Part shown: one piece after another, positions 4,630-17,630 of the stretch
Position numbering within the stretch: position 1 is the first letter of the stretch
Layout of the letters: each line of letters starts with the position of its first letter
Source: a virus
Direction: 5' to 3' (one strand)
Length of the DNA stretch: 20,778 nt
Virus record (IMG/VR): IMGVR_UViG_3300047369_000989
Location: 1 to 20,778 of that record
Translations under genes and position numbers: made by a program
Notes under the pieces: generated by a model
Seen by the model: only the letters and a program-made list of their open reading frames with translations
What the model was told of the DNA's origin: nothing
Database searches by the model: none

Positions 4630-5106
4630 CTACTTAATCCTATCGTTAGATGTAGACAAAACGTCATTAAAGGAATCAGGTAATAAATTTATTTTACCAT
4701 TAGATTTCTTTTTAAGAAAATAAGCAAAAATAGTATACATAGTAGAAGAACCCGGTATAGGAGTAGTTAACATTACTAAGACAAATGGTAAGAGTTTTGG
4801 AATATCCTTTAATTGATTCAAGGCTTCATCTAGTTCCTGTTTAGTAGGCATATCCTTTCTACTTTTTAGATTTAGTTTTTTTCGTAATTGTCTATTAAAA
4901 ACACTCAACATGTCACTCGTTTCAGAACCCTCTTTTTTAAAAGCGCCTATTACATTTTTAGATATGTCTTTTACTTTAGAAGCTTTATTTACAACAAAGG
5001 ATTTAAAAGTTTTGTATTTAGATTGATTTGAATATTCCTCTAATAAAGCACTATAATAATCTTTTTTATGATTAAAAAGTTTTATATGTTTATTCTTCTT
5101 CTTCAT
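4630..5106 (-). CDS. LETM1-like small membrane protein
   Basis: A 158-residue protein with a strongly basic N-terminal half (MKKKNKHIKLFNHKKDYYSALLEEY; KSFVVNKASKVKDISKNVIG). Next comes an amphipathic helix KQELDEALNQLKDIPK (89-104) and a hydrophobic stretch at about 104-131 with PFVLVMLTTPIPGSSTMYTI. The order 'helix, QL, PF, TPIPGSS, hydrophobic, LP' recalls the LETM1 ribosome-binding-like domain seen in some bacterial and phage proteins, but the match is by eye. It probably sits in the inner membrane with the basic part in the cytoplasm. Its N-terminus overlaps the zinc-ribbon gene by 17 nt, so the two are co-expressed. Confidence 0.6.
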   Translation of the reverse strand: MKKKNKHIKLFNHKKDYYSALLEEYSNQSKYKTFKSFVVNKASKVKDISKNVIGAFKKEGSETSDMLSVFNRQLRKKLNLKSRKDMPTKQELDEALNQLKDIPKLLPFVLVMLTTPIPGSSTMYTIFAYFLKKKSNGKINLLPDSFNDVLSTSNDRIK

Positions 5107-5287
5107 TGTATTCAGTGGAATCGCTATGTTTTTCTAGGTCTTCTTCACACATAGATATTGGCATTCCTCTTAATTGGTCGTTTACACATTTCCAACAAGT
5201 AACAGCAGTTGCTTCTATCCCAACATTCTTTACAGTCTCATTGCATATTTTACAATTTAAGTCTTTTCTAGTATACGATTTTTTCAT
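5090..5287 (-). CDS. Small zinc-ribbon protein with acidic tail
   Basis: A 65-residue protein with two CxxC knuckles, C12-C15 (NCKICNETV) and C31-C34 (TCWKCVND), a typical four-cysteine zinc ribbon. The C-terminus is acidic (STEYNEEEE). The ATG overlaps the stop of the DUF192 gene by 4 nt. Such mini-ribbons often bind nucleic acid or RNA polymerase; the target is unknown here. Confidence 0.75.
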   Translation of the reverse strand: MKKSYTRKDLNCKICNETVKNVGIEATAVTCWKCVNDQLRGMPISMCEEDLEKHSDSTEYNEEEE

Positions 5288-5703
5288 ATTGAAAGTTTAA
5301 TATCTTTATTTCCATGTTTATCATACCATCCTGCTTTAGTTTCAATTACATATTGAGCGGGATATTTACATGTGAAAACTTGTGGATAACTATCCTTTGG
5401 CATAGTCATTGACTCTACTAATTCTTTATTTGAATTAAAGAATAATATGTCTAATGGAAAATTTACATTCTTCATCCAAAAGGATACTTTAGGAATTTCT
5501 GAAGGGTACACAAATAATATACCTTCATTATCTGAAGGTTCTTTTTCATTTTGGTATCCTTTAAGTTGAGTTTCGGGAGTAGACGCTATCTTTAGTTTCA
5601 TAGGACAATTGCCTAAATTACAATCAATTATCTTATTATCTACCGTATTTTGTTTACAGTAGTTTTCAAATAAGGGAATTGATCTTTTAGAATTAGAGTC
5701 CAT
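5284..5703 (-). CDS. DUF192 family protein
   Basis: A 139-residue protein. The DUF192 signature is clear from about 35 on: MKLKIASTPETQLKGYQ, then EGILFVYPSE (60-69), SFWMKNVNFPLDILFFN (74-90) and PAQYVIETKAGWYDKHG (115-131). The family is about 100-120 residues and its biochemical role is unsettled. Many bacterial members are exported, but this one has no signal peptide. Its first 25 residues (KRSIPLFENYCKQN) faintly recall the capsid-targeting-like leaders of nearby genes, though the (L/I)xE site is absent. It lies after a long hairpin (5717-5762) and is the first gene of the set running down to the zinc ribbon and the LETM1-like protein. Confidence 0.88.
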   Translation of the reverse strand: MDSNSKRSIPLFENYCKQNTVDNKIIDCNLGNCPMKLKIASTPETQLKGYQNEKEPSDNEGILFVYPSEIPKVSFWMKNVNFPLDILFFNSNKELVESMTMPKDSYPQVFTCKYPAQYVIETKAGWYDKHGNKDIKLSI

Positions 5704-5793: not shown

Positions 5794-6141
5794 TTAGATT
5801 TCTTCTTCCTCTTCCTCTTCTTCCTCTTCTTCGTCTTCTTCTTCCTCTTCTTCGTCTCCTTCTTCTTCCTCTTCTTCATCTTCTTCGTCTCCACCTTCTA
5901 GTGCAGATAGTCGATCTTCAAGGTCGTCAACGATAGCTTTAAGGTCTTCCATAGTAAGCTCTTCTTCGTCTCCTTCTTCTTCCATGTCTAGATCTGGATC
6001 ATCTTCCATATCATCTTCCATATCTTCTTCAGGAGCTTCTGCGTATGCATCCATGCCCATAGCGAATTGGTTATCTGTCTCTTCCATTTCATTAAGTCTA
6101 TTCTTCATGAAGGAATTAAAATTAGCAATTTTTCTTTTCAT
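5794..6141 (-). CDS. Very acidic candidate prohead core/scaffold protein (T4 gp67-like) with capsid-targeting-like leader
   Basis: A 115-residue protein. The leader MKRKIANFNSFMKNRLNE|ME resembles the T4 internal-protein leader and has an LxE site at about residue 18. Residues 31-61 and 83-115 are mostly Asp/Glu, ending in a run of Glu. Between them TMEDLKAIVDDLEDRLSALEGG (63-84) is one predicted helix. T4 gp67 (Pip), a prohead core protein of similar size, also ends in a Glu/Asp tail and is degraded to internal peptides by gp21. The match is in composition, size and leader, not in alignable sequence. The GAAGAG-rich coding DNA could be prone to slippage. A TATAAATA late-type box lies just upstream. 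Confidence 0.6.
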   Translation of the reverse strand: MKRKIANFNSFMKNRLNEMEETDNQFAMGMDAYAEAPEEDMEDDMEDDPDLDMEEEGDEEELTMEDLKAIVDDLEDRLSALEGGDEEDEEEEEEGDEEEEEEDEEEEEEEEEEEI

Positions 6142-6150
6142 TTTACTGAT

Positions 6151-6168
6151 GTTTATTTTATTTATATA
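6151..6168 (-). promoter_or_regulatory. Late-promoter box with exact TATAAATA
   Basis: The minus strand reads TATATAAATAAAATAAAC, 10-27 nt before the ATG at 6141. It contains the exact T4 late consensus TATAAATA. This is the clearest of the boxes in the window, and it precedes a predicted structural (late) gene. Confidence 0.6.
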
Positions 6169-6201
6169 TCTGCCTTAAACAATACAAAACTAAAAAAAAA
6201 G

Positions 6202-6708
6202 TTATTTAGAATCCTTTGCTTTTTTTTCTAATTCAGATATTTGACTATCTACCATTTGTAATTGTTGTATTCCGTTTTGTAAAGTAAGAAACATAGACAA
6301 CTGAGTTTGAGCAGAGTGAGAGTTTTTACCACTTATAGATCCTATAAATACACTCATTGCTTCTATGGCATCATTCCTAACGCTTACTTTTTGAGTCTCT
6401 GTTGACTTACTATCAAGAGTGGATAAAGATGCTTCTAAGTTGAGCATTAATATACTTAACAGATATGCTTGATTAGGACCGGACCAAGGAGTATCATTCT
6501 TAAAAGTATTTCTAATTCTTTTAAATACATCATATGTTGCATCTAAAGTAACACTTCCATTTTTTCTGAATTCCTTTAATTGAGTTAATCTTTCTTCATC
6601 CGTTAGTTCCTTTTCAGGTACATCCGGTGTTTCGGTTATTGTTTCTTCAGCGGTATTTTTTCCCTCTTCTACCGTTTCAGTTTGTTGATTTGAATTTGAT
6701 TCCATCAT
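6202..6708 (-). CDS. Hypothetical helical protein, 168 aa
   Basis: The N-terminal 45 residues are disordered and rich in Glu and Thr (QQTETVEEGKNTAEETITETPDVPEK). Residues 40-168 look all-helical, with LTDEERLTQLKEFRKNGSV, TYDVFKRIRNTF, YLLSILMLNLEASLSTL and a closing helix QMVDSQISELEKKAKDS. No family recognised. The ATG pair at 6708 and 6705 gives two possible starts. It has its own promoter-like box and lies between two predicted structural genes, so a virion or assembly role is plausible but not shown. Confidence 0.65.
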   Translation of the reverse strand: MMESNSNQQTETVEEGKNTAEETITETPDVPEKELTDEERLTQLKEFRKNGSVTLDATYDVFKRIRNTFKNDTPWSGPNQAYLLSILMLNLEASLSTLDSKSTETQKVSVRNDAIEAMSVFIGSISGKNSHSAQTQLSMFLTLQNGIQQLQMVDSQISELEKKAKDSK

Positions 6709-6715
6709 AGCTATA

Positions 6716-6732
6716 ATTTTATTTTTATTATA
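6716..6732 (-). promoter_or_regulatory. Late-promoter-like box before the 168-aa protein gene
   Basis: The minus strand reads TATAATAAAAATAAAAT, 8-24 nt before the ATG at 6708, identical over 17 bases to the box before Hsp20. Confidence 0.45.
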
Positions 6733-6760
6733 CCTATTACTTAATATGGGTTTTAATAAA

Positions 6761-8377
6761 TTACTTTTTTGCTGCTGCTAATTTTTGCTTAACTATTGAA
6801 ACATAAGGTCCTGTACCAGTCATAGCTGCCCAGTAACACCCTACTATTTGCTCCATGTCTGATTCTAATTCACTTGAAATAACATCTTCATAGAAATTAC
6901 TTCCAGCATATGCTGATTCATACTCCTTTTTAACATCAATAGCTGTTTGTTTATCCATACTAAGTATCATTAAAGCTATAGCCAATTCATCTGAGTTATC
7001 CGTCCAACCGTCCATTGCTTCATATAACATAGCGGCTAGCTCAGCTGCAGCTAATTGTTTGTACTGTCTCATAGCTTTTGCAGGGTCTGCTGTAGTTTGA
7101 TCATAGTATCCCATTAATTCAGCTGGATTGTATGGATTGAACATATCATCCATTTGTTCATCTGATCCAGTTACTCCTTCTAAGTTTCCTGTTTCACCTT
7201 TACTAATTACTCCTGTAAGACCTGCGGCCGTTGATAATTTAGTGGCCATTTCCATTGTCATACCTCCAGGTTTACCTGCTTGAGATAACAATGTTTCTAA
7301 ACCTGCTGTAAAACCGCCGGCTGATTTTGTTCCTCCAGTTCCTATATTTTGAATTTTTACTAGATATTTACCTGCGGAATTTTTAACATATCCAGTTATC
7401 TTAACTGTTGATGTTTTACCTGCTTTAGATATCCATTTAATTTCTTTACCAACTGGCATCAATGTTTTTGTATATCTAAGCTTGGCGGCAGCTGACATTG
7501 TTTTCCATCCATTTAACATGGGTTTAGTTATTCTACTAAATGTTTTACCTGCCTTTAAAGCTTTACCTGCAGCCTTTGCTGTATTAGCGGCTTTAGCTAA
7601 TTTTTTAGATTTGCTCACTGCTTTTCCTATTTTAGCAGCTGCTTTTCCTCCAGCAACGGCTGCTCGACCTACAGATGTAGCAGCGAGAGAAGCTCCAAGA
7701 GTAGGGATAGCAAGTATTAAAAGTCCTACATCAGTAAATACTGTTCCCCAACTAATACCTCTAATAATAGACTTAGGTATAGGTCTTCTAGCAATAGCCA
7801 TTGCACATGCTTCTGCTCTTCCATCAAAATCTCCATCAATCCATTCATCTAACGTGTATCCTTCGTATTTAGTTCCAAATCCGTCTGAGTTAAATATATC
7901 AAATACTCTCTGTACACCTCTCTCTGAAACATTTCTTTGTGATAAATCCATATGAATAGCTGATAAAGCAGACGCATACTTAGATTCATCTGTTCCCATT
8001 CCATCCATTGATTTATATACATAACCTGCTATAGTAGTAAGATTTAAATCTCCAACTAAAGTACTATCATTTTCTAATGATAAAGTTATTCTAGGGGATC
8101 CTGAGTCAGATCTATCTATTATTAAAGACATCTCGTCTCCAGGTTTTACTTTAAATTTAGAACTGTTTAGTTCAATATACGCTTCTGATACTCTACCATC
8201 CGCTACCTTTTGATACGCATCATTTATTTCTTCTAATAGATTTTCATTTGAATCTAAGTATTGTTTTAATCTCTCGTTTGCGTCTTCTGAAAAAACAGCC
8301 ACGGTTGTGTTTTGCTCAACTACACGTTTTCCGTAGTTGGCATACCATGTTGGAAGTGAATTATTTCTATTTAACAT
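6761..8377 (-). CDS. Large protein with two annexin-like repeats around a hydrophobic Ala/Gly/Lys core
   Basis: A 538-residue protein. Residues 446-515 follow the annexin repeat closely: LAAMLYEAMDGWTDNSDELAIALMILS, then QTAIDVKKEYESAY, then EDVISSELESDMEQIVG, matching the AxxLYxAMKGxGTDE...IL...Q...Y...LxSELSGDxE plan. Residues 115-195 hold a second, looser copy with YKSMDGMGTDESKYASAL. Between them are a hydrophobic segment (210-237, ILAIPTLGASLAATSV) and a long Ala/Lys/Gly helix (236-280). A small beta region follows (KTSTVKITGYVKNSAGKYLVKIQN). It lies 20 nt after the 375-aa gene and probably shares its transcript. It may be a virion protein that meets membrane during DNA entry. The annexin reading is by eye; calcium binding is not implied. 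Confidence 0.75.
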   Translation of the reverse strand: MLNRNNSLPTWYANYGKRVVEQNTTVAVFSEDANERLKQYLDSNENLLEEINDAYQKVADGRVSEAYIELNSSKFKVKPGDEMSLIIDRSDSGSPRITLSLENDSTLVGDLNLTTIAGYVYKSMDGMGTDESKYASALSAIHMDLSQRNVSERGVQRVFDIFNSDGFGTKYEGYTLDEWIDGDFDGRAEACAMAIARRPIPKSIIRGISWGTVFTDVGLLILAIPTLGASLAATSVGRAAVAGGKAAAKIGKAVSKSKKLAKAANTAKAAGKALKAGKTFSRITKPMLNGWKTMSAAAKLRYTKTLMPVGKEIKWISKAGKTSTVKITGYVKNSAGKYLVKIQNIGTGGTKSAGGFTAGLETLLSQAGKPGGMTMEMATKLSTAAGLTGVISKGETGNLEGVTGSDEQMDDMFNPYNPAELMGYYDQTTADPAKAMRQYKQLAAAELAAMLYEAMDGWTDNSDELAIALMILSMDKQTAIDVKKEYESAYAGSNFYEDVISSELESDMEQIVGCYWAAMTGTGPYVSIVKQKLAAAKK

Positions 8378-8397
8378 TTTAACTAGCTTTTATTTTT

Positions 8398-9525
8398 TTA
8401 AATTTTAACCGCTGGAGGGACGATTGTTTCAGTTGAATCTTCTTCAGGTTCTGCGTATATTTGATTACCATCAGTGTAATATAATATATCTTTTACAGTC
8501 CAATTGACTCCATTAGGATATTTAGCTTCAAAAGCAGCAATTAATTCTTTAAGATATTCAGTATCAGTGTATATACGTTTAAAGAATTCTATATCCTTAG
8601 CGTTTGTTATAGCAGACGTGCTGCCATCTCTATTAATCCAGAAGGGTTCTCCATCTTTTAAAGCTACCCAGCCTTCGTTTGATCCATCTCTACTTACTGC
8701 CCAGAACTTTAATTCTTTATTTTCTCCTTCATCAATGGTAATAGTATAAACTAGACCATCGGCTCCGCTTTGATATTCAAATTGTTTACCTATTAAACTA
8801 TCGTCTGTCACAGGGATATCGTCAGTTTCATCTGATTCAATATCCTTTTCTTCATCACTTATTTCTTCTTCTTCGTCTTGACTATCATCAGGCGTATCTA
8901 TTGTTTCTTCATCTTCAACATTAATGATAGTATTTGAAAGTGCTTGTTGGTTTTTAGCCAATTGAGCATCTATAGCCATTATAGCTTTTATATTTATGTA
9001 ATTTACTCCATCTATTGAAACTAACTCAGATCCATCAGCGGATCCTGCATCTTGTTTTTGCATTAGTTCTGATCTATCTAATATAGTAAACTGAATTTTT
9101 TGTCTTCTATCATTGTCTATTCTAACCGAATATGCTATAATATTTTTTTGAAAAAATGCGGGATCTAATTTTCCATATTGATTTACAAATGAATTTTCAC
9201 CGTTTAAAAATTGAGTTAAAGCAGTTTGTCCATCTATAGTTAGGTTTGAATTTGCATCTAACCAATTATAATCATTTACCAGTTTTACTATGAAATTTGA
9301 AGTATCTTGGGCTTTCCATACAACTTTATGTTTTACACCGGTTGCATCTCTATATACTTCCTTTCCTCTTACTCCTCTTATTTTATCATCGCCTTGGCCT
9401 AAATCAGAACTAGCCTGTTTCATAGCTTTCTTTTCTCTTCTTTTTTCCCTGGCTTTTTTAAACAGTTGTTCGTCTACGTGATCAGTTGATTTATCAAAAT
9501 CACTAAAGCTTTTAATAGTCTTCAT
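8398..9525 (-). CDS. Probable virion/head-associated protein with capsid-targeting-like leader
   Basis: A 375-residue protein. It starts MKTIKSFSDFDKSTDHVDE, close to the leader seen in the plus-strand genes, with a VxE at about residue 19. A very basic helix follows (LFKKAREKRREKKAMKQ, 21-37). Residues 55-200 form a mixed domain (KVVWKAQDTSNFIVKLVNDYNWLD; LTIDGQTALTQFLNGENSF; YSVRIDNDRRQKIQFTIL). An Asp/Glu linker spans about 203-242. The C-terminal domain (243-360) has repeated turns (FEYQSGADGLVYTITI; WVALKDGEPFWINRDGST). No named family recognised. Leader, linker and late-type promoter point to a structural or packaged protein. Confidence 0.7.
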   Translation of the reverse strand: MKTIKSFSDFDKSTDHVDEQLFKKAREKRREKKAMKQASSDLGQGDDKIRGVRGKEVYRDATGVKHKVVWKAQDTSNFIVKLVNDYNWLDANSNLTIDGQTALTQFLNGENSFVNQYGKLDPAFFQKNIIAYSVRIDNDRRQKIQFTILDRSELMQKQDAGSADGSELVSIDGVNYINIKAIMAIDAQLAKNQQALSNTIINVEDEETIDTPDDSQDEEEEISDEEKDIESDETDDIPVTDDSLIGKQFEYQSGADGLVYTITIDEGENKELKFWAVSRDGSNEGWVALKDGEPFWINRDGSTSAITNAKDIEFFKRIYTDTEYLKELIAAFEAKYPNGVNWTVKDILYYTDGNQIYAEPEEDSTETIVPPAVKI

Positions 9526-9536
9526 GTAGTGAAATG

Positions 9537-9555
9537 TATTTTATTTTATATATAT
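9537..9555 (-). promoter_or_regulatory. Late-promoter-like box, minus-strand side of the divergent region
   Basis: The minus strand has TATATATAAAATAAAATA, 12-30 nt before the ATG at 9525. It would drive the 8398-9525 and 6761-8377 gene pair. Confidence 0.5.
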
Positions 9556-9558
9556 GAC

Positions 9559-9576
9559 AAATAAATAAAAAAAATA
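9559..9576 (+). promoter_or_regulatory. Late-promoter-like box, plus-strand side of the divergent region
   Basis: AAATAAATAAAAAAAATA lies 16-33 nt before the ATG at 9592, almost touching the opposing box at 9537-9555. It is the only candidate start point for the plus-strand operon 9592-13666. No SD is seen before the ATG. Confidence 0.4.
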
Positions 9577-9591
9577 GCCTTTACTTGAAAA

Positions 9592-10359
9592 ATGAATATT
9601 AGATCATTTAACGAATACGAAAAATATACAAACGGAAATGAAGAGGATATAATTAATAAAATACACATATTAACGGAACAGGATAATATTGAAAACATAC
9701 CTTTTGTAAAAATAAATTCAATTAGCGAAGCTATTGATGCTCCGGTTTTAATATGTGGTGATTTTAAAATATCTAATTTAAATGAATCTAATATGTGTAA
9801 AGTATATAATTCATTTAATTTTAAAAAAGGATATAATTATATAAACAAACACATAGGTGAATCTTTTATTCCAAAGACAGTTAATAATAGAAATAATGTT
9901 AAGAGGTTAAAATTCCCTATAGTAGCTTCTGGTAAAAACGGAACTACTACATATAATTCTTTATATAAATTTAATAAATCTGAAAATGATTACAATACCT
10001 TTCAAGAAAAAGTAATACCAAAAACTAAATACGAAGTATTAATGTTTAATAACGATGTAGTGTCGGTTCATGAAAAGATAAATGGAGAGTTATTTGAAAA
10101 GAATATTTCTAAAAATATCAATAACGTTATTAATAATATTACAAAGAAAATATCTGAAAGTCATAGTTTCAATGCATATTATCTTACCATATATGAGTCA
10201 AGTAATGGTAAATATTATTTGAATAAAATAAAAAAATGTAAGTCTTTTAATGAAAAGCAATCATATCAATTATATGTAAAAATATATGAAGATCATTATG
10301 GGTATAGTATACCAACATGGTTTAAGAATAAAATAAAAGATATAAATGCTAATAATTAA
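9592..10359 (+). CDS. ATP-grasp-like protein with capsid-targeting-like leader
   Basis: A 255-residue protein beginning MNIRSFNEYEKY, with later sites such as ILTE|Q and ISE|A that fit a gp21-type cleavage pattern. Residues 105-127 (LKFPIVASGKNGTTTYNSLYKF) resemble the ATP-grasp strand FPxVxKxxxGxxGxGxxx. Residues 147-160 (YEVLMFNNDVVSVH) match the next strand pair. YYLTIYESSNGKYYLNKI (196-213) is like the late ATP-grasp strands, but the usual acidic metal ligands (E-x-N) are replaced by NKI. The end (YEDHYGYSIPTWFKNKI) is a conserved-looking tail. If this is an ATP-grasp protein it may be inactive. It heads the plus-strand operon and overlaps bS21 by 14 nt. Confidence 0.55.
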   Translation: MNIRSFNEYEKYTNGNEEDIINKIHILTEQDNIENIPFVKINSISEAIDAPVLICGDFKISNLNESNMCKVYNSFNFKKGYNYINKHIGESFIPKTVNNRNNVKRLKFPIVASGKNGTTTYNSLYKFNKSENDYNTFQEKVIPKTKYEVLMFNNDVVSVHEKINGELFEKNISKNINNVINNITKKISESHSFNAYYLTIYESSNGKYYLNKIKKCKSFNEKQSYQLYVKIYEDHYGYSIPTWFKNKIKDINANN

Positions 10360-10525
10360 AGTTTTAAATAACAAAATAGAATATGCTTTAAAGGAGTACA
10401 AGAAAAAGAATAAAGATACCAAATTATTAAAGCAGCTTCGTGAAAGAATGACATATACTAAACCATCTATGAAAAAGAGAATGGTTAAAAATAAGGCAAT
10501 AAGAAAAAACAATTATGAAAAATAG
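10346..10525 (+). CDS. rpsU: Phage-encoded ribosomal protein bS21
   Basis: A 59-codon ORF that overlaps the upstream stop by 14 nt and the downstream ATG by 11 nt. The protein starts MLIIKVLNNKIEYALKEYKK and continues TKLLKQLRERMTYTKPSMKK, ending in a basic KNKAIRKNNYEK. This is the bS21 plan: (M)(L/I)I(I/V)xV, then ALKRYKRKxxKTxxLKELRxRxxYxKPSxxKR. Length fits the 55-70 residues of the family. bS21 sits at the 30S platform beside the 3' end of 16S rRNA, where mRNA leaders dock. In Bacteroidetes it helps hide the anti-Shine-Dalgarno sequence. Phage bS21 genes are known from metagenomic phages. No SD lies before the start, unlike the SD-bearing rpsU reported in Flavobacterium, so it may escape host autoregulation. 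Confidence 0.9.
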   Translation: MLIIKVLNNKIEYALKEYKKKNKDTKLLKQLRERMTYTKPSMKKRMVKNKAIRKNNYEK

Positions 10526-11096
10526 AATTAAATCTTTTAGTGAATATATTGGAAAAAATAAAGTTTCTGAAAACCTAGAGTATCATATAGATAATTCAAT
10601 ATCTATAGTTGAAACAGTATTTAGACCAGGTAGTGAATCCCATATAAATTTACTTAATGAAGCAAGACAACTTTATAAATTAGGTGATTTAAAATTAAGT
10701 AACGATGATGCTATTCTGTTTGATACAACTGACATTGGTAAAACTGGGATATATGAAGGGATTGAGGTTCCTTTAGATCTACCTCTAGAAGATTTTATAC
10801 TTAATGAAGCTAAATATAAAGGTAGAGAAGTTAAACTTAATTATCCAACTAGAGGAGGATCTAAGAAATTTAAAGTATACGTTAAAAATCCTAAAACTGG
10901 AAATGTTAAAATGCTACAAATAGGCGATACAACAGGGTTAAAAGCTAAAGTAAGCGATCCTAAAGCTAGAAAAAGCTTTGCTGCTCGTCATAAATGTAGT
11001 ACTAAGAAAGATAGAACAACTGCAGGATATTGGTCTTGTAGAATTAACAAATATGCCCATCTTTGGGGAGGAAAAACATATCCAGGATATTGGTAA
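10515..11096 (+). CDS. DUF5872-like phage protein with capsid-targeting-like leader and internal LNE|A sites
   Basis: A 193-residue protein. The leader is MKNRIKSFSEYIGKNKVSE|N. Two further sites read LLNE|A (47-50) and ILNE|A (95-99), both perfect for the T4 gp21 rule (L/I)xE|A. Residues 62-92 (SNDDAILFDTTDIGKTGIYEGIEVPLDLPL) resemble a segment common in marine T4-like phage proteins. The C-terminal domain (115-193) reads KKFKVYVKNPKTGNVKMLQIGD, then RKSFAARHKC, then YWSCRINKYAHLWGGK, the pattern I associate with DUF5872 and its possible metal-binding Cys/His. Cleavage at 99 would free this domain alone. The function of the domain is not known to me. Confidence 0.75.
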   Translation: MKNRIKSFSEYIGKNKVSENLEYHIDNSISIVETVFRPGSESHINLLNEARQLYKLGDLKLSNDDAILFDTTDIGKTGIYEGIEVPLDLPLEDFILNEAKYKGREVKLNYPTRGGSKKFKVYVKNPKTGNVKMLQIGDTTGLKAKVSDPKARKSFAARHKCSTKKDRTTAGYWSCRINKYAHLWGGKTYPGYW

Positions 11097-11112
11097 AAAA
11101 TAATTAATAGTT

Positions 11113-11562
11113 ATGAGAAGAAAAGTTTTTAACTTTAAACAATATGTACTAAACGAAAATAACCTAGATAAAACATGTCCATTACCAACTAGGAATATTA
11201 AAAAAAATACTAAAAATAGAGATTTAGCTATAAAGTCTGAAACTATAAACTACGGACCTATGAACCTAACAGATGAACAATATTGGATTGATTTAGCTGA
11301 TCATTGGAGTAATGAGAGTAGAAAAACCACGCCTGAAGTAGCTAAGGAAAGTAAGTGTAAGAATTGCGCCGCTTTTGATATTTCAGAACGAATGAAAAAA
11401 TGCATGCCAGGAGAAATAGACAAAGATGGATATCTTGGATATTGCTGGATGCATAAATTTAAATGTCATAGCGAAAGAACATGTTATACATGGGCAGCAG
11501 GTGGACCTATTGATACTGATGAAACAAGTTTAGATTGGGAATCTCGTAATAAAGAATCATAA
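11113..11562 (+). CDS. Cys-rich phage protein with capsid-targeting-like leader
   Basis: A 149-residue protein beginning MRRKVFNFKQYVLNE|NN, an LxE leader. The C-terminal part carries C82-x2-C85, C97, C111, C118 and C124 with H114 (CKNCAAFDISERMKKC, then GYCWMHKFKCHSERTCYTWAAGGP). This Cys pattern, with the closing CYTWAAGGP, recurs in my memory of marine T4-like phage proteins. It suggests a zinc or iron-sulfur site. A further Cys, C22, is separate. Its stop lies 5 nt before the next ATG. The substrate or partner is unknown. Confidence 0.7.
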   Translation: MRRKVFNFKQYVLNENNLDKTCPLPTRNIKKNTKNRDLAIKSETINYGPMNLTDEQYWIDLADHWSNESRKTTPEVAKESKCKNCAAFDISERMKKCMPGEIDKDGYLGYCWMHKFKCHSERTCYTWAAGGPIDTDETSLDWESRNKES

Positions 11563-11567
11563 GAATT

Positions 11568-11834
11568 ATGGAACCTTATACTGAACATAAAATAAATAAT
11601 AATATAGTTATCAGAACATTTAAAGAATCTACTGATTCAGAAGATTTTATGTGGCATAGGGATTTAGAAGATAGGGTAATAGAGTCTCTTAATCAAAACG
11701 ATTGGCAAATTCAATTAGAGAATGAATTACCAAAAGGTGTAAGTTCTGGAGAAACTATAGTTATTCCAAAAGGAATCTGGCATAGGGTTATAAAAGGAAC
11801 CGGATATGCAATATATAAAATAAAGAAAAATTAA
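11568..11834 (+). CDS. Small cupin-like protein
   Basis: An 88-residue protein. Residues 28-35 (MWHRDLED) offer H30, D32 and E34/D35, and IPKGIWHRVIKG (66-77) supplies H72, as in the two motifs of a single-domain cupin. NDWQIQLENELP lies between them, and a Gly turn (VSSGETIVIPKG) precedes the second motif. Metal-binding is plausible. Similar short proteins with WHRDxEDR and IPxxxxHRVIKG occur in T4-like cyanophages as far as I recall. It has no capsid-targeting-like leader, and its stop is one base before the next ATG. Confidence 0.65.
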   Translation: MEPYTEHKINNNIVIRTFKESTDSEDFMWHRDLEDRVIESLNQNDWQIQLENELPKGVSSGETIVIPKGIWHRVIKGTGYAIYKIKKN

Positions 11835-11835
11835 A

Positions 11836-12393
11836 ATGGGAAATCATAAACAAGAAAACTATATGTTCTTTAAAAACCTAGAACAAATCATGAGACAAGC
11901 AACTATGCTGTATCAAATGGATCATAGCATGTTAGATCAGATCTTACAACAACATGACTGGGCAGATGATCATGTATCTGTAGCTAAAGAAAATATGGAT
12001 CAGGTGTTTGATTTTATAATGAATAAAACAAAAGAAGTTCCTGTACCTAATAATGATATGCAAACTGATAGTATTTCAAACCATTTGGATTTTGATTTTA
12101 TGGCATCTGAAAGTGCAGTGGTCGGTTTTAACGACTTTATAAAGGTAAATGAGAAAAAAAAACTAGAATGGCATGACTCTGATGCGCCCGATGCTAATGG
12201 AAAATTTAAAAAATTAGGAATAAAAGCTTTAGCTGAATGGTTGATTAAAACACGAAAAGGTGACATGAGAAAAATAACAGGTAGTCTTAATCAACAAATA
12301 AACTTTAATAAAAAGTCAGATCCAGCATATGCTAAGAAGATGGAAAAAGTTAGAGATAAGGTTAAAAATTTATTAGAAAAAAACAAAGATTAG
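11836..12393 (+). CDS. Conserved two-domain phage protein with an internal leader-like motif
   Basis: A 185-residue protein. Residues 10-65 form a helical bundle-like domain (LEQIMRQATMLYQMDHSMLDQIL; VAKENMDQVFDFIMNK). After a linker, GFNDFIKVNE|KK (97-108) looks like the leader motif of its neighbours but in the middle of the protein. The C-terminal domain (109-180) reads LEWHDSDAPDANGKFKKLGIKALAEWLIKTRKGDMRKITGSLNQQINFN, a conserved-looking phage module rich in Lys. The internal motif could mark the join of two once-separate proteins, or an internal cleavage point. Function unknown. Confidence 0.65.
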   Translation: MGNHKQENYMFFKNLEQIMRQATMLYQMDHSMLDQILQQHDWADDHVSVAKENMDQVFDFIMNKTKEVPVPNNDMQTDSISNHLDFDFMASESAVVGFNDFIKVNEKKKLEWHDSDAPDANGKFKKLGIKALAEWLIKTRKGDMRKITGSLNQQINFNKKSDPAYAKKMEKVRDKVKNLLEKNKD

Positions 12394-12395
12394 AA

Positions 12396-13169
12396 ATGGG
12401 AGTTATTAAAAACTACAGTAATTATTTAAAAGAAGAACATCCTTCTGAATACAAAGCACCTAAAGGAAGTGCTAGGGATAAAAAACTAAAAAAAGCCCAG
12501 GAACTATTAAAAGGATCTGAAGCTGATAAGAAAAAAGCTTATAAACTTAGAGATGAGATGGAAGCTGAAGAGAGAACAAATGAAACGATAGACCCTAAAG
12601 TAGATTTAAAAGAATTCGCTGAAAAAAGAGGAGATGGAGCAAAAAGCACAGTAAGTAGCTCTAAAGAAAAAGGTGGTTTTTCCATGCTTTCATATGATCA
12701 TTTTAAAGTTAAAGTTCCATACTATGAAAAAGCAGCTAATGGAAAATTTGACATGTCAGATTTTAAAGATGAATACGATGAATTATTAAACGAACTAATA
12801 GAAGCTACTTCTAAAGAAGATATGAACATTACCCAAAAGAAATTTCAAGAAATAGTGGGTAAAATAGAAGTGCTTGGTGAACTTTGTATAAGAAATAAAG
12901 ACACTGAAGAACCTATTAATGAAGCTAAGAAAGCAAAGAAAAAGAAAACATTAAGTAAAGCTACTGAAGCAAAAATAAGAAAAGTTGCAAATAAAAAAGG
13001 ATATACATTTGGAAGCTTAAAAGCAGAATACATCAAGGGCCTTGGAGCATTTTACAGTTCAGGTTCCAGGCCAGGTATGACTGCTCATGGATGGGCAATG
13101 GCTAGGGTAAATAAAGCAACTCCGAGTAAACCTTGGGCTAATGTTAAAAAAAGTAAATCTAAGAAGTGA
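12396..13169 (+). CDS. DUF5824-like protein with capsid-targeting-like leader
   Basis: A 257-residue, strongly charged protein beginning MGVIKNYSNYLKE|E. Residues 17-65 are helical and Lys/Glu-rich. A middle domain (94-170, GFSMLSYDHFKVKVPYYEKAANG and DEYDELLNELIEA) follows, then INE|A (174-177), another possible cleavage point. The C-terminal domain (198-257) reads KKGYTFGSLKAEYIKGLGAFYSSGSRPGMTAHGWAMARVN, which I associate with DUF5824, a module shared by phages and giant viruses. The last residues are basic (KKSKSKK), suiting DNA contact inside a head. Its TGA overlaps the GTG start of the Nudix gene. Confidence 0.7.
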   Translation: MGVIKNYSNYLKEEHPSEYKAPKGSARDKKLKKAQELLKGSEADKKKAYKLRDEMEAEERTNETIDPKVDLKEFAEKRGDGAKSTVSSSKEKGGFSMLSYDHFKVKVPYYEKAANGKFDMSDFKDEYDELLNELIEATSKEDMNITQKKFQEIVGKIEVLGELCIRNKDTEEPINEAKKAKKKKTLSKATEAKIRKVANKKGYTFGSLKAEYIKGLGAFYSSGSRPGMTAHGWAMARVNKATPSKPWANVKKSKSKK

Positions 13170-13666
13170 AAACTTATAAAGACTTAAAATCTATATTAAA
13201 CGAGAGATGGGAAGACGTAGACGACTCTATTGATAAGAAAGTAGCAGGTGTTTGTATAATATACGATAATAAGATATTATTAGTTCATCCAACAAATGCA
13301 AGTTGGCAAAAAAGAACTTTAGGTATACCAAAAGGAAAAGTTGAAAAAGGAGAAGACGTTTTAACAGGTGCGATCAGAGAGCTTAAAGAAGAAACAGGTA
13401 TAGAATTAGATGCCTCTATTCTTTCTAAATCTGAGCCGTACGTATGCGACTTATATGATAAAAAAGGAAATGTTGAAAAACAATTAATTTATTTTCTACA
13501 TGAAATAAGCGATTTATCTGAAATAGGAATAAGTAGTTTAAGAATACCTAAAAGTCAGTTACAAGCTGAGGAAGTAGATTGGGCTGGTTTTTTAGATGCT
13601 AAAGAATCTTACCTTAAGATAAATGAATGGCAGTTATTAATATTAGATCGCCATTTAGATAAATAA
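13166..13666 (+). CDS. Nudix hydrolase with capsid-targeting-like leader
   Basis: A 166-residue Nudix protein. The Nudix box is complete: G-KVEKG-E-DVLTGAI-REL-KEETGI (GX5EX7REUXEEXGU), at about residues 57-79, with the catalytic metal-binding REL-EE set intact. The frame starts at GTG 13166 overlapping the upstream TGA. The N-terminus MKTYKDLKSILNE|R closely resembles T4 IPIII (MKTYQEFIAE). Nudix enzymes cut nucleoside diphosphates linked to another group (NTPs, caps, sugar-nucleotides, ADP-ribose); the substrate here cannot be read from the box. T4 NudE is a Nudix enzyme, but I know of no packaging leader on it. If the leader works, this enzyme would enter the host with the DNA. Confidence 0.9.
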   Translation: MKTYKDLKSILNERWEDVDDSIDKKVAGVCIIYDNKILLVHPTNASWQKRTLGIPKGKVEKGEDVLTGAIRELKEETGIELDASILSKSEPYVCDLYDKKGNVEKQLIYFLHEISDLSEIGISSLRIPKSQLQAEEVDWAGFLDAKESYLKINEWQLLILDRHLDK

Positions 13667-13672
13667 AAATAG
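13656..13672 (+). promoter_or_regulatory. Late-promoter-like box before the lysin gene
   Basis: TAGATAAATAAAAATAG lies 17-33 nt before the lysin ATG and overlaps the end of the Nudix gene. It shares the ATAAATAAAAA core of the other boxes. Confidence 0.4.
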
Positions 13673-13688
13673 AACAATACTTTATATT

Positions 13689-15743
13689 ATGAAATCCTTT
13701 AGAGAAATATTAAATGAAGCCGCAATAGAAGGAAAACCAGACCAAATGGCAGTTCCATATGCGGATACACTTGCTCAAAACGTAAATGTAAGAGAAATAC
13801 CTTCAGGATCTAATAGAGGTTCTGAAATAGATAGATATTTCGATTTAGTTGGATTGGATAACGAAGCTCATTATAACTCAATTAATCCAAAGACAAAGAG
13901 ACCCTTTCATAAAGGGTATCCATGGTGTGCTGCTTTTGTTTACGCTATGTTTCATGATTTTTGTAAAAAACTAGGATTAAAAAACCCTTTAGTTAGAACA
14001 GCAGGTGTTATGAAAAGCTGGAATAGAGCAGATGAGTCTTTAAAAATACCTATTTCTCAAGCTAGAGCTAATTTTAATTTAGTAAAACCTGGTCAAATAT
14101 TTATTCAAAAACGTAAAGGTGGAGGCCATACTGGAATAGTAACCGCTGTAAATACAAAAAATAAAACTTTTACTACTATAGAGGGGAATACAAATGATAA
14201 ATTGTCAGGGGAAGGACATAGAGTAGGAAGAAACACTAGAAAACTTTCACAAGGAAGTCTAGTAGGTTTTATAGATTATTTTAAAGGACATAGAAATAAT
14301 ACTTTTGAAAAAACAGTTGCTAAAGTAGTAGCCGAGGCCCCTACTGATTATTCTAGCGAAGAATATATCGAAGGACTTTCGAAAAATGATATTAAAAAAA
14401 TACAACTTGCATTATTAAAATTAGGATATGATTTAGGTAATTTTGGACCAAATAAAGACGGAGTGGATGGAGAAATAGGTACTAAAACAACCGATGCGGT
14501 TAATGATTGGAAATTAAAAAATAATATGAAATCTGATTCAGTAATAGATAAAGAGGTATATTCATTAATAACTAAAGATAACAAATTTGAAAAGACAAGC
14601 GGTGGTAATAAAAAACAAAAAAGCACAGGAGATATCAGTATTGACCCAAATGTAAATTATAAAAAGGTTACTAATTCTGTTCAAAAAATGGTTAATCAGA
14701 CTATTAAAGTAATAATGCCTAATCTATTTCCTAATAAATTAGTAACGGTAGATAGTACAAATATTTCAAATGACCCAGGTCTAGTAATAAAGAGAGCAAT
14801 TATAGAAAGCACTAAGTCAGTTAATAAATTTTCTGATTTAATCCTTGAAAAAAATTGGATTAATAGAATAAAAGATGCTAAAAAGTCAAGAGACACTAAG
14901 TTAGCAGATCAATATAGAGACGGAAGAGTTGAATCTAGCCCGATAGACGGAACTGGCGCTTTACAAAAAAGCGCAGCTAATGTTAAAGATATAATTAATT
15001 CAAAACCTGAAGTAGATATCATATACAACAAACAATTAAATGTTTTTTATATAAAACCCTACAACCAAAGTGCTATAAAGGCTTTAGGAACAGCGAACGT
15101 TATTAAAATGGAGCCTAAGGATTTTGAAGAGTTACAAATAGCGTTTAAAGATGTAACTTTAAGTACACAGCAAACAGATCCTAAACCTGAAACAAATAAT
15201 ACTGCTAATATCAATACAGTAAACTTAAAATCTACTTTATCAAATGTTAAACCTCTCCCATCAAACAGTAGTGAAACAACTATTAAGGGATCTACTATAG
15301 CTAATGATTTAGTAAAAGATTTAAATATTACTAAAGAAGTAGCTGCGGGCATAGTTGGAAATTTATGGGCTGAAAGCGGATTAGTACCTGACAGAATACA
15401 GGGATCAGGTATGAAGAGAGGAACTCTTCCTCAAGCTAAAAATGGAGGATATGGATGGGCACAATATACTCATCCTAGTTTAAAATCTGACTTAATAGCT
15501 TTCGCTAAGAAAAAAGGAGTAGACTTAAATAGTCAACCTATGAGTGATGAATTAAATTACGAATATTTAAAACACTGGGTATCTAAAAATAGTAATAAAT
15601 TTACAGAATTAAAATCACAAGGTGATGTTAAGAGTGCAACTAACTATTTTTTAACCAAATATGAAAGACCTGCTGATCAATCAGAAAGAGCTTTAAATAA
15701 AAGAGTTAATTTTGCAAACAGCGTATATTCAAGAATGGCTTAA
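13689..15743 (+). CDS. Modular lysin: CHAP, peptidoglycan-binding and lysozyme domains, with capsid-targeting-like leader
   Basis: A 684-residue protein. The leader MKSFREILNE|AAIEG matches the T4 IP leader and the gp21 site exactly in pattern. A CHAP amidase/endopeptidase domain spans about 40-200: catalytic C80 in GYPWCAAFVY, H147 in GGGHTGIVTAVN, and E165/N167 in IEGNTN. Residues 225-293 are a PG_binding_1 module (IKKIQLALLKLGYDLG; DGEIGTKTTDAVNDWK). The region 300-530 is a linker-like, Lys/Asn-rich domain. Residues about 535-684 match a phage tail lysozyme domain: AAGIVGNLWAESGL with E562, then GGYGWAQYTHPSL and FLTKYERPADQ. Two lytic activities in one chain suit cell-wall entry or lysis. 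No signal peptide, so release would need a holin or virion delivery. Confidence 0.93.
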   Translation: MKSFREILNEAAIEGKPDQMAVPYADTLAQNVNVREIPSGSNRGSEIDRYFDLVGLDNEAHYNSINPKTKRPFHKGYPWCAAFVYAMFHDFCKKLGLKNPLVRTAGVMKSWNRADESLKIPISQARANFNLVKPGQIFIQKRKGGGHTGIVTAVNTKNKTFTTIEGNTNDKLSGEGHRVGRNTRKLSQGSLVGFIDYFKGHRNNTFEKTVAKVVAEAPTDYSSEEYIEGLSKNDIKKIQLALLKLGYDLGNFGPNKDGVDGEIGTKTTDAVNDWKLKNNMKSDSVIDKEVYSLITKDNKFEKTSGGNKKQKSTGDISIDPNVNYKKVTNSVQKMVNQTIKVIMPNLFPNKLVTVDSTNISNDPGLVIKRAIIESTKSVNKFSDLILEKNWINRIKDAKKSRDTKLADQYRDGRVESSPIDGTGALQKSAANVKDIINSKPEVDIIYNKQLNVFYIKPYNQSAIKALGTANVIKMEPKDFEELQIAFKDVTLSTQQTDPKPETNNTANINTVNLKSTLSNVKPLPSNSSETTIKGSTIANDLVKDLNITKEVAAGIVGNLWAESGLVPDRIQGSGMKRGTLPQAKNGGYGWAQYTHPSLKSDLIAFAKKKGVDLNSQPMSDELNYEYLKHWVSKNSNKFTELKSQGDVKSATNYFLTKYERPADQSERALNKRVNFANSVYSRMA

Positions 15744-15950: not shown

Positions 15951-17630
15951 TTATAAATTAAATGGCTTAATATATTTTAGTTTATTTGAATAAGAGATGC
16001 TTTCCAAAGCAGAAGAACCAGATCCTTGTATTCCCATTATTTCATTATACTTTTCATCTGATATTTGATGATTAGTGTATAATTCTTGCATTTCCTTTTC
16101 ATTTTCTTCTTTCGCTCTAGCATATACATATGCAGGAAAACTAGGAAGACCCATTCGTTGAGCGTTGTAATTTAAATGTTTTTGTAAATCGTACACTAAA
16201 TCGTCTTCTTTTAATTCAGTTTCAGGCCTATCCTTTAACTGTTGATCTATATAAGGTACGTCTATAACAGAGCCTTTTCTTTCTTTTTCATTGTTAGAAT
16301 GCTCTTCCATTCTATCATTTAGCTCTTGAGTAGATATAAGATCTTCCATTCCTTCTCTTTCAAAATCAGATAAAGCGTTAGCTGAAGATCCTAGTAATTT
16401 AACCACCTGTTTAGCTACGAAAGAACTGAATTTACCAAGAACAAGCCCTCTCATTATAATAACATCAGAATTCCTCTTTAGGAATTTTTTAGCCAGTCCT
16501 CCTCTTTTAGATATAAACGTGTAGTATGTAGCTAAATCATCTGAGTTTTTTAGAACGGACTTCATTGGCCCGTTTGGAAACTTTGCAGATATATTAGAAA
16601 ACGTAGATAAATCTGCTATTGGTATTTCTTTAATTACCTTTCCTCCTTTTTTAATAACTAGATTATCTCCTTTTTTAATTACTTTACCGCCTGTTTCTAG
16701 AGCTTCTTCCATTAGTTTGAAGTTCTTAGCTGCCTTTTTAGAAATAGCCTGAGCTATAGGTTTATCTACTTCTTTAGAGAATACTAATAAATTGTCGGCT
16801 ACTGTTTTTCCCATGTCAGCTATCTTAGTCAAAAACCTTCTAAGAGGCTTTCCTATAAATGGAACCCATCCAACGGCTTTACCTACTACATCTTTTAGTA
16901 AAAAAGAAATTACACTCGTGATACTTGCTGCGACTTTGGCTGCTGATTTTTTAATATACTCTAGGAACCTTTTACTTTTACCAAAGACTTTTCCTTCTTG
17001 TTTCATTAAAACTTCAGCTGATTCTTTTGCTATTGTTTTACCAGCACCTTTGGTAGCTAGTTTTGAAAAAGGTGCTGAAAATACATGAGCAACTCCTTTA
17101 AAACCTTTAGCGACATCTCCACCAAAAGGTATCATTGCAATCAAAGATATTAAGCCTAGTATCCACTTTCCTCTAAACATGTAGATAATACCATTTATTA
17201 AATCTGCAACTATTCCGAGAGGAATACCTACTACTAAAAAAGCATCTCCAACAAGACCTATAAAATCTAGAACTAGATGGAGTATTCCTATAGGGGATCC
17301 TCCTTCGGTTAAACTACTTAATAGATTCTTTAACATACCTAAGATTCCTCCGCTTGGAGTTGGAAGAACTCCGGCTCCACCTATTACATTATCGATAGCT
17401 GCCGCATCCGTACTAAGTACTGCGTCAGCCTGTTCATTTAACAAAATAGCTTCCCTTCTAAGAATAGGACTTTGAAAAAATTCTTTTTCTGTTAAGGATT
17501 GAATGTCTGGAATTAAATTGTTAAAATCTAGAGCCTGTTCTAGAATATGCATTTTATCCTTTAAGGCTTCTAATATAGCCTGACCTTCGCTAGATCTTAG
17601 TTCATTTTCATATTGTATTGATAAATCCAT
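15951..17630 (-). CDS. Large hydrophobic-core protein, possibly membrane-active
   Basis: A 559-residue protein. Residues 1-80 are helical with ILLNE|QA at about 62-68. Residues 113-170 hold two or three hydrophobic helices (GILHLVLDFIGLVGDAFLVVGIPLGIV; GLISLIAMIPFGGDVAKG), which resemble the pre-toxin-like 'VGD...Y..RGxW..A..S..AMIPFGGDxxKG' hairpin seen before toxin domains and in phage ejection proteins. A second hydrophobic stretch is at 233-263 (VAASITSVISFLLKDVVGKAVGWVPFIGKPL). The C-terminal 140 residues are charged and helical, including LPSFPAYVYARAKEENEKEM. It has the general build of the 6761-8377 protein (hydrophobic, Lys-rich middle) but no clear annexin repeat. A virion or ejected role is possible; no enzyme motif seen. 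Confidence 0.7.
   Translation of the reverse strand: MDLSIQYENELRSSEGQAILEALKDKMHILEQALDFNNLIPDIQSLTEKEFFQSPILRREAILLNEQADAVLSTDAAAIDNVIGGAGVLPTPSGGILGMLKNLLSSLTEGGSPIGILHLVLDFIGLVGDAFLVVGIPLGIVADLINGIIYMFRGKWILGLISLIAMIPFGGDVAKGFKGVAHVFSAPFSKLATKGAGKTIAKESAEVLMKQEGKVFGKSKRFLEYIKKSAAKVAASITSVISFLLKDVVGKAVGWVPFIGKPLRRFLTKIADMGKTVADNLLVFSKEVDKPIAQAISKKAAKNFKLMEEALETGGKVIKKGDNLVIKKGGKVIKEIPIADLSTFSNISAKFPNGPMKSVLKNSDDLATYYTFISKRGGLAKKFLKRNSDVIIMRGLVLGKFSSFVAKQVVKLLGSSANALSDFEREGMEDLISTQELNDRMEEHSNNEKERKGSVIDVPYIDQQLKDRPETELKEDDLVYDLQKHLNYNAQRMGLPSFPAYVYARAKEENEKEMQELYTNHQISDEKYNEIMGIQGSGSSALESISYSNKLKYIKPFNL

Follow-up and report, generated by a model that had tools for sequence, protein, structure and literature searches.

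Unrelated proteins of a large-phage lineage share an N-terminal leader, a probable capsid-targeting label that resembles the repeats of a protease-fused scaffold

We analysed a stretch of 20,778 bases of viral DNA (IMG/VR record IMGVR_UViG_3300047369_000989, hereafter the window), a complete contig that is a fragment of a larger virus, and in which genes with unrelated products start with the same kind of short leader, a candidate signal for packaging in the phage head. The window has no isolate match at the DNA level. It is collinear, at ~75-87% DNA identity, with two large IMG/VR relatives, G2 (IMGVR_UViG_3300024346_000014, 125.6 kb) and G5 (3300020392_000008, 105 kb). The genes of the relatives include a T4-type portal, terminase, baseplate and head-closure, and comparisons of portal, terminase and capsid place them nearest, among named phages, to uncultured huge phages (462-735 kb), Lak phages, PTm1, PAU and Chryseobacterium phage MA9V-2, which suggests that this large phage probably has a host in the Bacteroidota. 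A preliminary description had placed the leader on eight genes, at 5794, 8398, 9592, 10515, 11113, 12396, 13166 and 13689. All eight are present, with plausible starts, and seven fit the pattern that we used ([FYW]xx[FYWILV], 0-7 residues, then [LIVMFY]xE, inside residues 2-23), with the (L/I)xE ending kept in orthologs. The exception is 9592-10359 (plus strand; probable leader MNIRSFNEYEKYTNGNEE, 9592..9645), whose N-terminus, MNIRSFNEYEKYTNGNEED, has the aromatic part but lacks a clear hydrophobic-x-E site, (L/I/V)xE included.

The other plus-strand leaders open very different proteins (a slash marks the putative cut). MKSFREILNE/ (13689..13718) begins a 684-residue protein with CHAP, peptidoglycan-binding and phage-lysozyme domains (13689-15743), the orthologs of which start with MKSFKDILNE/D and MRSFREILSE/A. 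A Nudix hydrolase (13166-13666) carries MKTYKDLKSILNE/ (13166..13204), its Nudix match starting at residue 27; a DUF5824-like protein (12396-13169; PF19141 at residues 188-240) carries MGVIKNYSNYLKE/ (12396..12434); and a Cys-rich protein (11113-11562) starts with MRRKVFNFKQYVLNE/ (11113..11157), recognized by its sequence. The 193-residue product of 10515-11096 has the leader MKNRIKSFSEYIGKNKVSE/ (10515..10571), in which (V/I)SE/N is kept in G2 and G5 though the spacer changes between relatives. A second LxE site, DFILNE/A, lies immediately before its phrog_7595 domain (residues 97-176).

On the minus strand, MKRKIANFNSFMKNRLNE/ (6088..6141) begins a 115-residue acidic (Asp/Glu-rich) protein (5794-6141), with TATAAATA upstream, and MKTIKSFSDFDKSTDHVDE/ (9469..9525) begins the product of 8398-9525, just upstream of which is TATAAAATA, a near-match to the late-promoter box. 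Some carriers had been overlooked. The 538-residue product of 6761-8377 (minus strand) has a leader ending in LPTWYANYGKRVVE/ (8315..8377); this end, WYANYGKRVVE/Q, corresponds to WYSNYGQILNE/Q in the G5 ortholog, whose leader ends in LPTWYSNYGQILNE/Q. The product of 4630-5106 (minus strand) is a probable carrier, with a leader ending in YYSALLEE (5035..5106) of which LLEEY is kept in G2 and G5. An internal copy, VGFNDFIKVNE/ (12121..12153, plus strand; site GFNDFIKVNE/K), lies inside 11836-12393, the second half of which is a separate gene in G5 (G5:85647-85925) with its own leader, MKLLNFKNFVLNE/K. A weak candidate, MDSNSKRSIPLFE/N (5665..5703, minus strand), begins 5284-5703; its PLFE is also found at a putative capsid-protein cut site, PLFE/Q. 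The regex match in 17688, an SSB homologue, is probably spurious. Internal leader-like sites before a further module are found in 10515-11096, in 11836-12393 and, outside the window, in L007:5675-7582 (G2 24675-26582; FKFSDYIKLFE/D), as if these cargoes were polyproteins cut into several products.

The preliminary description also held that these proteins have only the leader in common, and this is borne out: the Nudix, CHAP/peptidoglycan-binding/lysozyme and DUF5824-like bodies fall into separate families. Further carriers include an adenylate/guanylate cyclase, a cell-wall hydrolase (Hydrolase_2), PG_binding_1, a tail-type lysozyme and many unknowns. The class III nucleotidyl cyclase (PF00211, E=1.4e-21; leader MYNSLITQFELFE/S) is encoded at L010:4605-5312, that is G2 80605-81312, and at G5 96057-96764, in a gene that adjoins another leader gene, and is possibly a packaged cyclase. 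Such adjacency, which several carriers show, would fit diverged duplicates in which the leader is the remnant of a shared N-terminal domain. We regard this common ancestry as very improbable, given the distinct Pfam folds behind the leader, the grouping of the bodies into separate families, and the Nudix orthologs. In these the enzyme is kept and the leader varies around a constant pattern, retaining just Met1, Lys5 and, invariantly, the Asn-Glu at the cut; the G12 leader, for instance, reads MLIKKFSDFVNE/S. The structural model of the Nudix protein is mediocre (mean predicted local distance difference test, pLDDT, of 62), and the leader is its least confident part (pLDDT ~29).

The excess of leaders at N-termini is real, and chance is excluded. 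Among the 27 window proteins of at least 75 residues, nine match the pattern in residues 2-23, against 8 of 215 internal segments (3.7%, p=9.4e-6), and shuffled N-termini give a mean of 1.3 matches and a maximum of five in 200 shuffles. Four genomes unseen when the pattern was stated (G10, G11, G12 and G21) have 96 matches in 604 N-termini against 431 in 6389 internal segments (6.7%; shuffle maximum 51), with a p-value of 2.5e-13 that overstates independence because these genomes share orthologs among themselves. With G2 and G5 (p=5.5e-10), the enrichment extends across seven genomes in all, and amounts to ~15-20 leader genes above the internal rate per larger contig. When proteins were clustered on their bodies only, the leader fell in the N-terminal segment of 67.0 of 445 families, against 33.0, 27.5 and 37.6 in later segments; for the 182 conserved families, the count was 39 against 12 and 14. 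At 30% G+C, N-termini rich in Lys, Asn and Phe are expected, and one might suspect chance or a start-codon or composition bias of AT-rich N-termini. This explanation, whose probability we put close to nil, is ruled out by the shuffles and by two control phages that show no leader excess, PTm1 (p=0.20) and immuto (p=0.66). De novo motif discovery by expectation maximization gave no clean motif, its likelihood being barely above the internal control, so that our conclusions rest on the previously stated pattern with its controls, and on the scaffold matrix described below, which is independent of it.

The two control phages deserve a comment of their own. PTm1 was tried as a model and set aside: its scaffold-protease and capsid are useful, but it has few leader-like N-termini. 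Flavobacterium phage immuto has two cargo bodies in common with the lineage, but not the leader. In its genome (NC_055915, L170), the N-terminus MENFDLKKFLVENKLTxNSxLLKE is common to the genes at 103806, 117631 and 118632, several genes have MKKSQLRxIIKEEL-like N-termini, and other genes with shared N-termini lie at 102294, 102880, 113188 and 123355; these are possibly another leader class.

The leader had been tied to a prohead protease of the T4 gp21 type. A profile search for this family (S77, PF03420) found none in the window contig, in G001-G005, or in G2 and G5. Among other contigs of the lineage, found via the portal protein, PF03420 exceeds its curated cut-off in 11 of the 23 related records examined, which are all the 11 with a capsid gene, and the match sits in an open reading frame (ORF) of 612-668 residues directly upstream of the major capsid gene. 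In control genomes, the sole match was in one bacterium, below the cut-off, and this control says little. The contig G007 (IMGVR_UViG_3300027751_001479, L031), which has the PF03420 gene beside that of the major capsid protein, shares 99.98% identity with G2 across 13,072 compared bases, and G2 has a cargo operon syntenic with that of the window (81-85%); hence one phage population holds both the protease and the cargo operon. G2 and G007 are public contigs from different samples, and their overlap makes them parts of one phage. The expected protease, whose absence would have counted against the preliminary reading, is thus present in the lineage, and in the same phage as G2, but not in the window's own contig.

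The protease ORF is also a scaffold. Downstream of the protease domain, all 11 sequences have tandem repeats (INYxEYIAE; units such as LNKSINYQDYLKEN and LDKGIQYTEYVAEG), 9-11 in most genomes and six in the most divergent, spaced by exactly 14 residues, or 28 where a unit has drifted. Comparable arrays are found in the 462-, 636- and 735-kb phages. AlphaFold draws the repeats as a long helix, which is unreliable (mean pLDDT of 45 for the protease-scaffold). A potential (L/I/V)xE cut site closes each repeat, and the protease could therefore dismantle its own scaffold into 14-mers. We trained a seven-column matrix on 40 repeat units only and applied it to all other proteins. It recovers 17.7 family-weighted N-termini against 4.4 expected; the highest value among 300 column permutations is 15.5, and with the matrix reversed the count falls to 2.7. 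The window leaders of the DUF5824-like and 193-residue proteins score 15.7 and 10.9 bits. The T4 IPII/IPIII leader (YQEFIAE) scores 17.0 bits, higher than any window leader, while that of IPI does not score. In a whole-distribution test, N-terminal and internal scores mostly do not differ significantly, only the high-scoring tail being enriched, and most leaders have the plan of the repeat in common with it, not its exact unit.

These data bear on whether the shared part is a mere substrate motif of the prohead protease, on proteins that reach head or tail through their own domains and are then trimmed. The (L/I/V)xE site is indeed the most constant element, found in the leaders and again in the scaffold and the capsid protein. 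Yet the carriers also have in common the aromatic i/i+3 part that precedes the site, column-permuted matrices lose the signal, and in T4 a leader of this kind suffices to package foreign proteins (PMC3012670). We thus consider the substrate-only explanation unlikely.

T4 is the closest known system. Its internal proteins IPI-III have only the leader conserved among them (PMC3012670, PMC12373910), and, as here, this is a short N-terminal segment on unrelated proteins, with an (L/I)xE cut site and an S77 protease, in a phage whose portal and terminase are of the type found in the relatives. The preliminary description had all three starting with MKTYQEFIAE/A, which is correct for IPII and IPIII but not for IPI, which starts with MKTFKEFTSTTTPVSTITEA and is built as MKTFKEF-spacer-ITE/A, with a spacer like that of 10515. 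T4 has three such proteins, whereas the lineage has far more carriers, enzymes among them, a more variable and sometimes internal leader, and a protease fused to a repeat scaffold. In phiKZ and SPN3US, also giant phages with head proteins cut by the prohead protease, the propeptides of inner-body and ejection proteins are trimmed (PMC10052503). These differ in that the motif is A-X-E and the propeptides are for the most part long (111-254 residues), not one short common leader; here the P3 residue is mostly L/I/V/F and leaders have 10-24 residues. The principle of a capsid-targeting sequence with a prohead protease is already known from T4; the expanded set and the leader-like scaffold repeats appear to be new, as we found neither described for these phages in open-access papers, including a jumbo-phage comparison and a review (subscription papers were outside the search).

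Sphingomonas (Sphingobacterium) phage PAU offers a partial parallel. As here, one leader recurs on a large set of genes, some twenty, many of them near the protease and capsid genes, but it is another sequence (MKTLxxLYEAKLNE/A, on ~22 of 285 ORFs), and protease and scaffold are in separate genes. Of the five PAU proteins with an 'internal capsid protein' annotation, four have this leader (p=1.3e-4), and the annotation was seemingly not based on the leader, because 18 other carriers are without it. No papers describing the PAU leader set were found. N-terminal sequencing of the PAU capsid protein shows a shortening from 585 to 520 residues, with ~65 N-terminal residues lost (PMC5646251), and the point of shortening is within one residue of ALME/N. 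In the capsid proteins, an xxE is kept near residues 50-65 (PLFE/Q, IINE/S), at sites that are putative, the actual cut being documented in PAU alone. The capsid propeptide of MA9V-2, WSEFINE/A, is similar to its cargo leaders FFSFINE/A and FTYFINE/A, a within-lineage match that is suggestive, with few cases. As for expression, a T4-like late promoter (TATAAATA) lies at most 60 bases upstream of 19 of 151 leader genes, against 25 of 728 others (p=2.9e-5).

Overall, we favour, with a probability of roughly 80%, a capsid-targeting system of the T4 type that trims at (L/I/V)xE and has grown to tens of cargoes. The leader would be an amphipathic N-terminal segment, with a basic start, aromatic residues at i/i+3 and a hydrophobic-x-E site, that draws unrelated proteins into the core of the prohead. 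It would probably do so by becoming part of the scaffold, the 14-residue tandem repeats of which bear the same motif. The scaffold-fused gp21-family protease would then cut repeats and leaders after (L/I/V)xE, and the mature cargo would stay around the DNA and probably be delivered to the next host. The large packaged cargo set of the preliminary description is partly supported by the protease in the lineage, the 17-bit match of the T4 leader and the PAU coincidence with internal capsid proteins; we infer packaging, cleavage and co-assembly with the scaffold, and take ejection from T4, the only phage where injection into the host is established (PMC12373910). More tentatively, and at somewhat less than even odds, the label may be a detached scaffold unit: cargo would co-assemble with the 14-residue repeats, the label would covary by lineage with scaffold or capsid propeptide, and packaged proteins could be read from sequence.

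Several points weigh against capsid targeting. Virion presence and removal of the leader are, in this lineage, deduced from sequence. The window, G2 and G5, all three fragments, lack a PF03420 protease. A minority of leaders score high with the scaffold matrix, the two motifs overlapping without coinciding, and T4's own scaffold, gp22, is without such repeats. The PAU labels are depositor annotations of uncertain basis. Finally, some leader proteins, such as the lysozymes, could be tail or lysis proteins instead. Cell-wall hydrolases, which several carriers are, often reside in tails or act at lysis, and the leader might accordingly address proteins elsewhere (membrane, baseplate or a host partner). 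But Nudix, cyclase and acidic proteins are also among the carriers, the leader is similar to the scaffold repeat and to the T4 head leader, and in PAU the carriers include annotated internal capsid proteins; such another address seems improbable, slightly more so than a mere substrate motif.

Two other window genes may be mentioned. The product of 451-1518 has a signal-peptide-like start and looks secreted, its counterpart is kept in G2 (81437-82504), and we presume, by impression, that it is more like Bacteroidota surface proteins than phage proteins. The 559-residue product of 15951-17630, with no family match, has long hydrophobic stretches and an internal ILLNE/Q near residue 70, and could be a virion protein that is cleaved and acts on membranes.

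To our knowledge, there is no structural explanation of how the T4 leader is recruited into the core, and a scaffold of tandem leader-like repeats would provide a direct, testable account of it. With the label, dozens of jumbo- and huge-phage genes now called 'hypothetical' would become predicted sources of virion cargo. Such cargo, with anti-defence candidates, cell-wall enzymes and a nucleotidyl cyclase among it, is likely to act within minutes of reaching the host. The label may also serve as a tag by which proteins could be loaded into capsids of large size.

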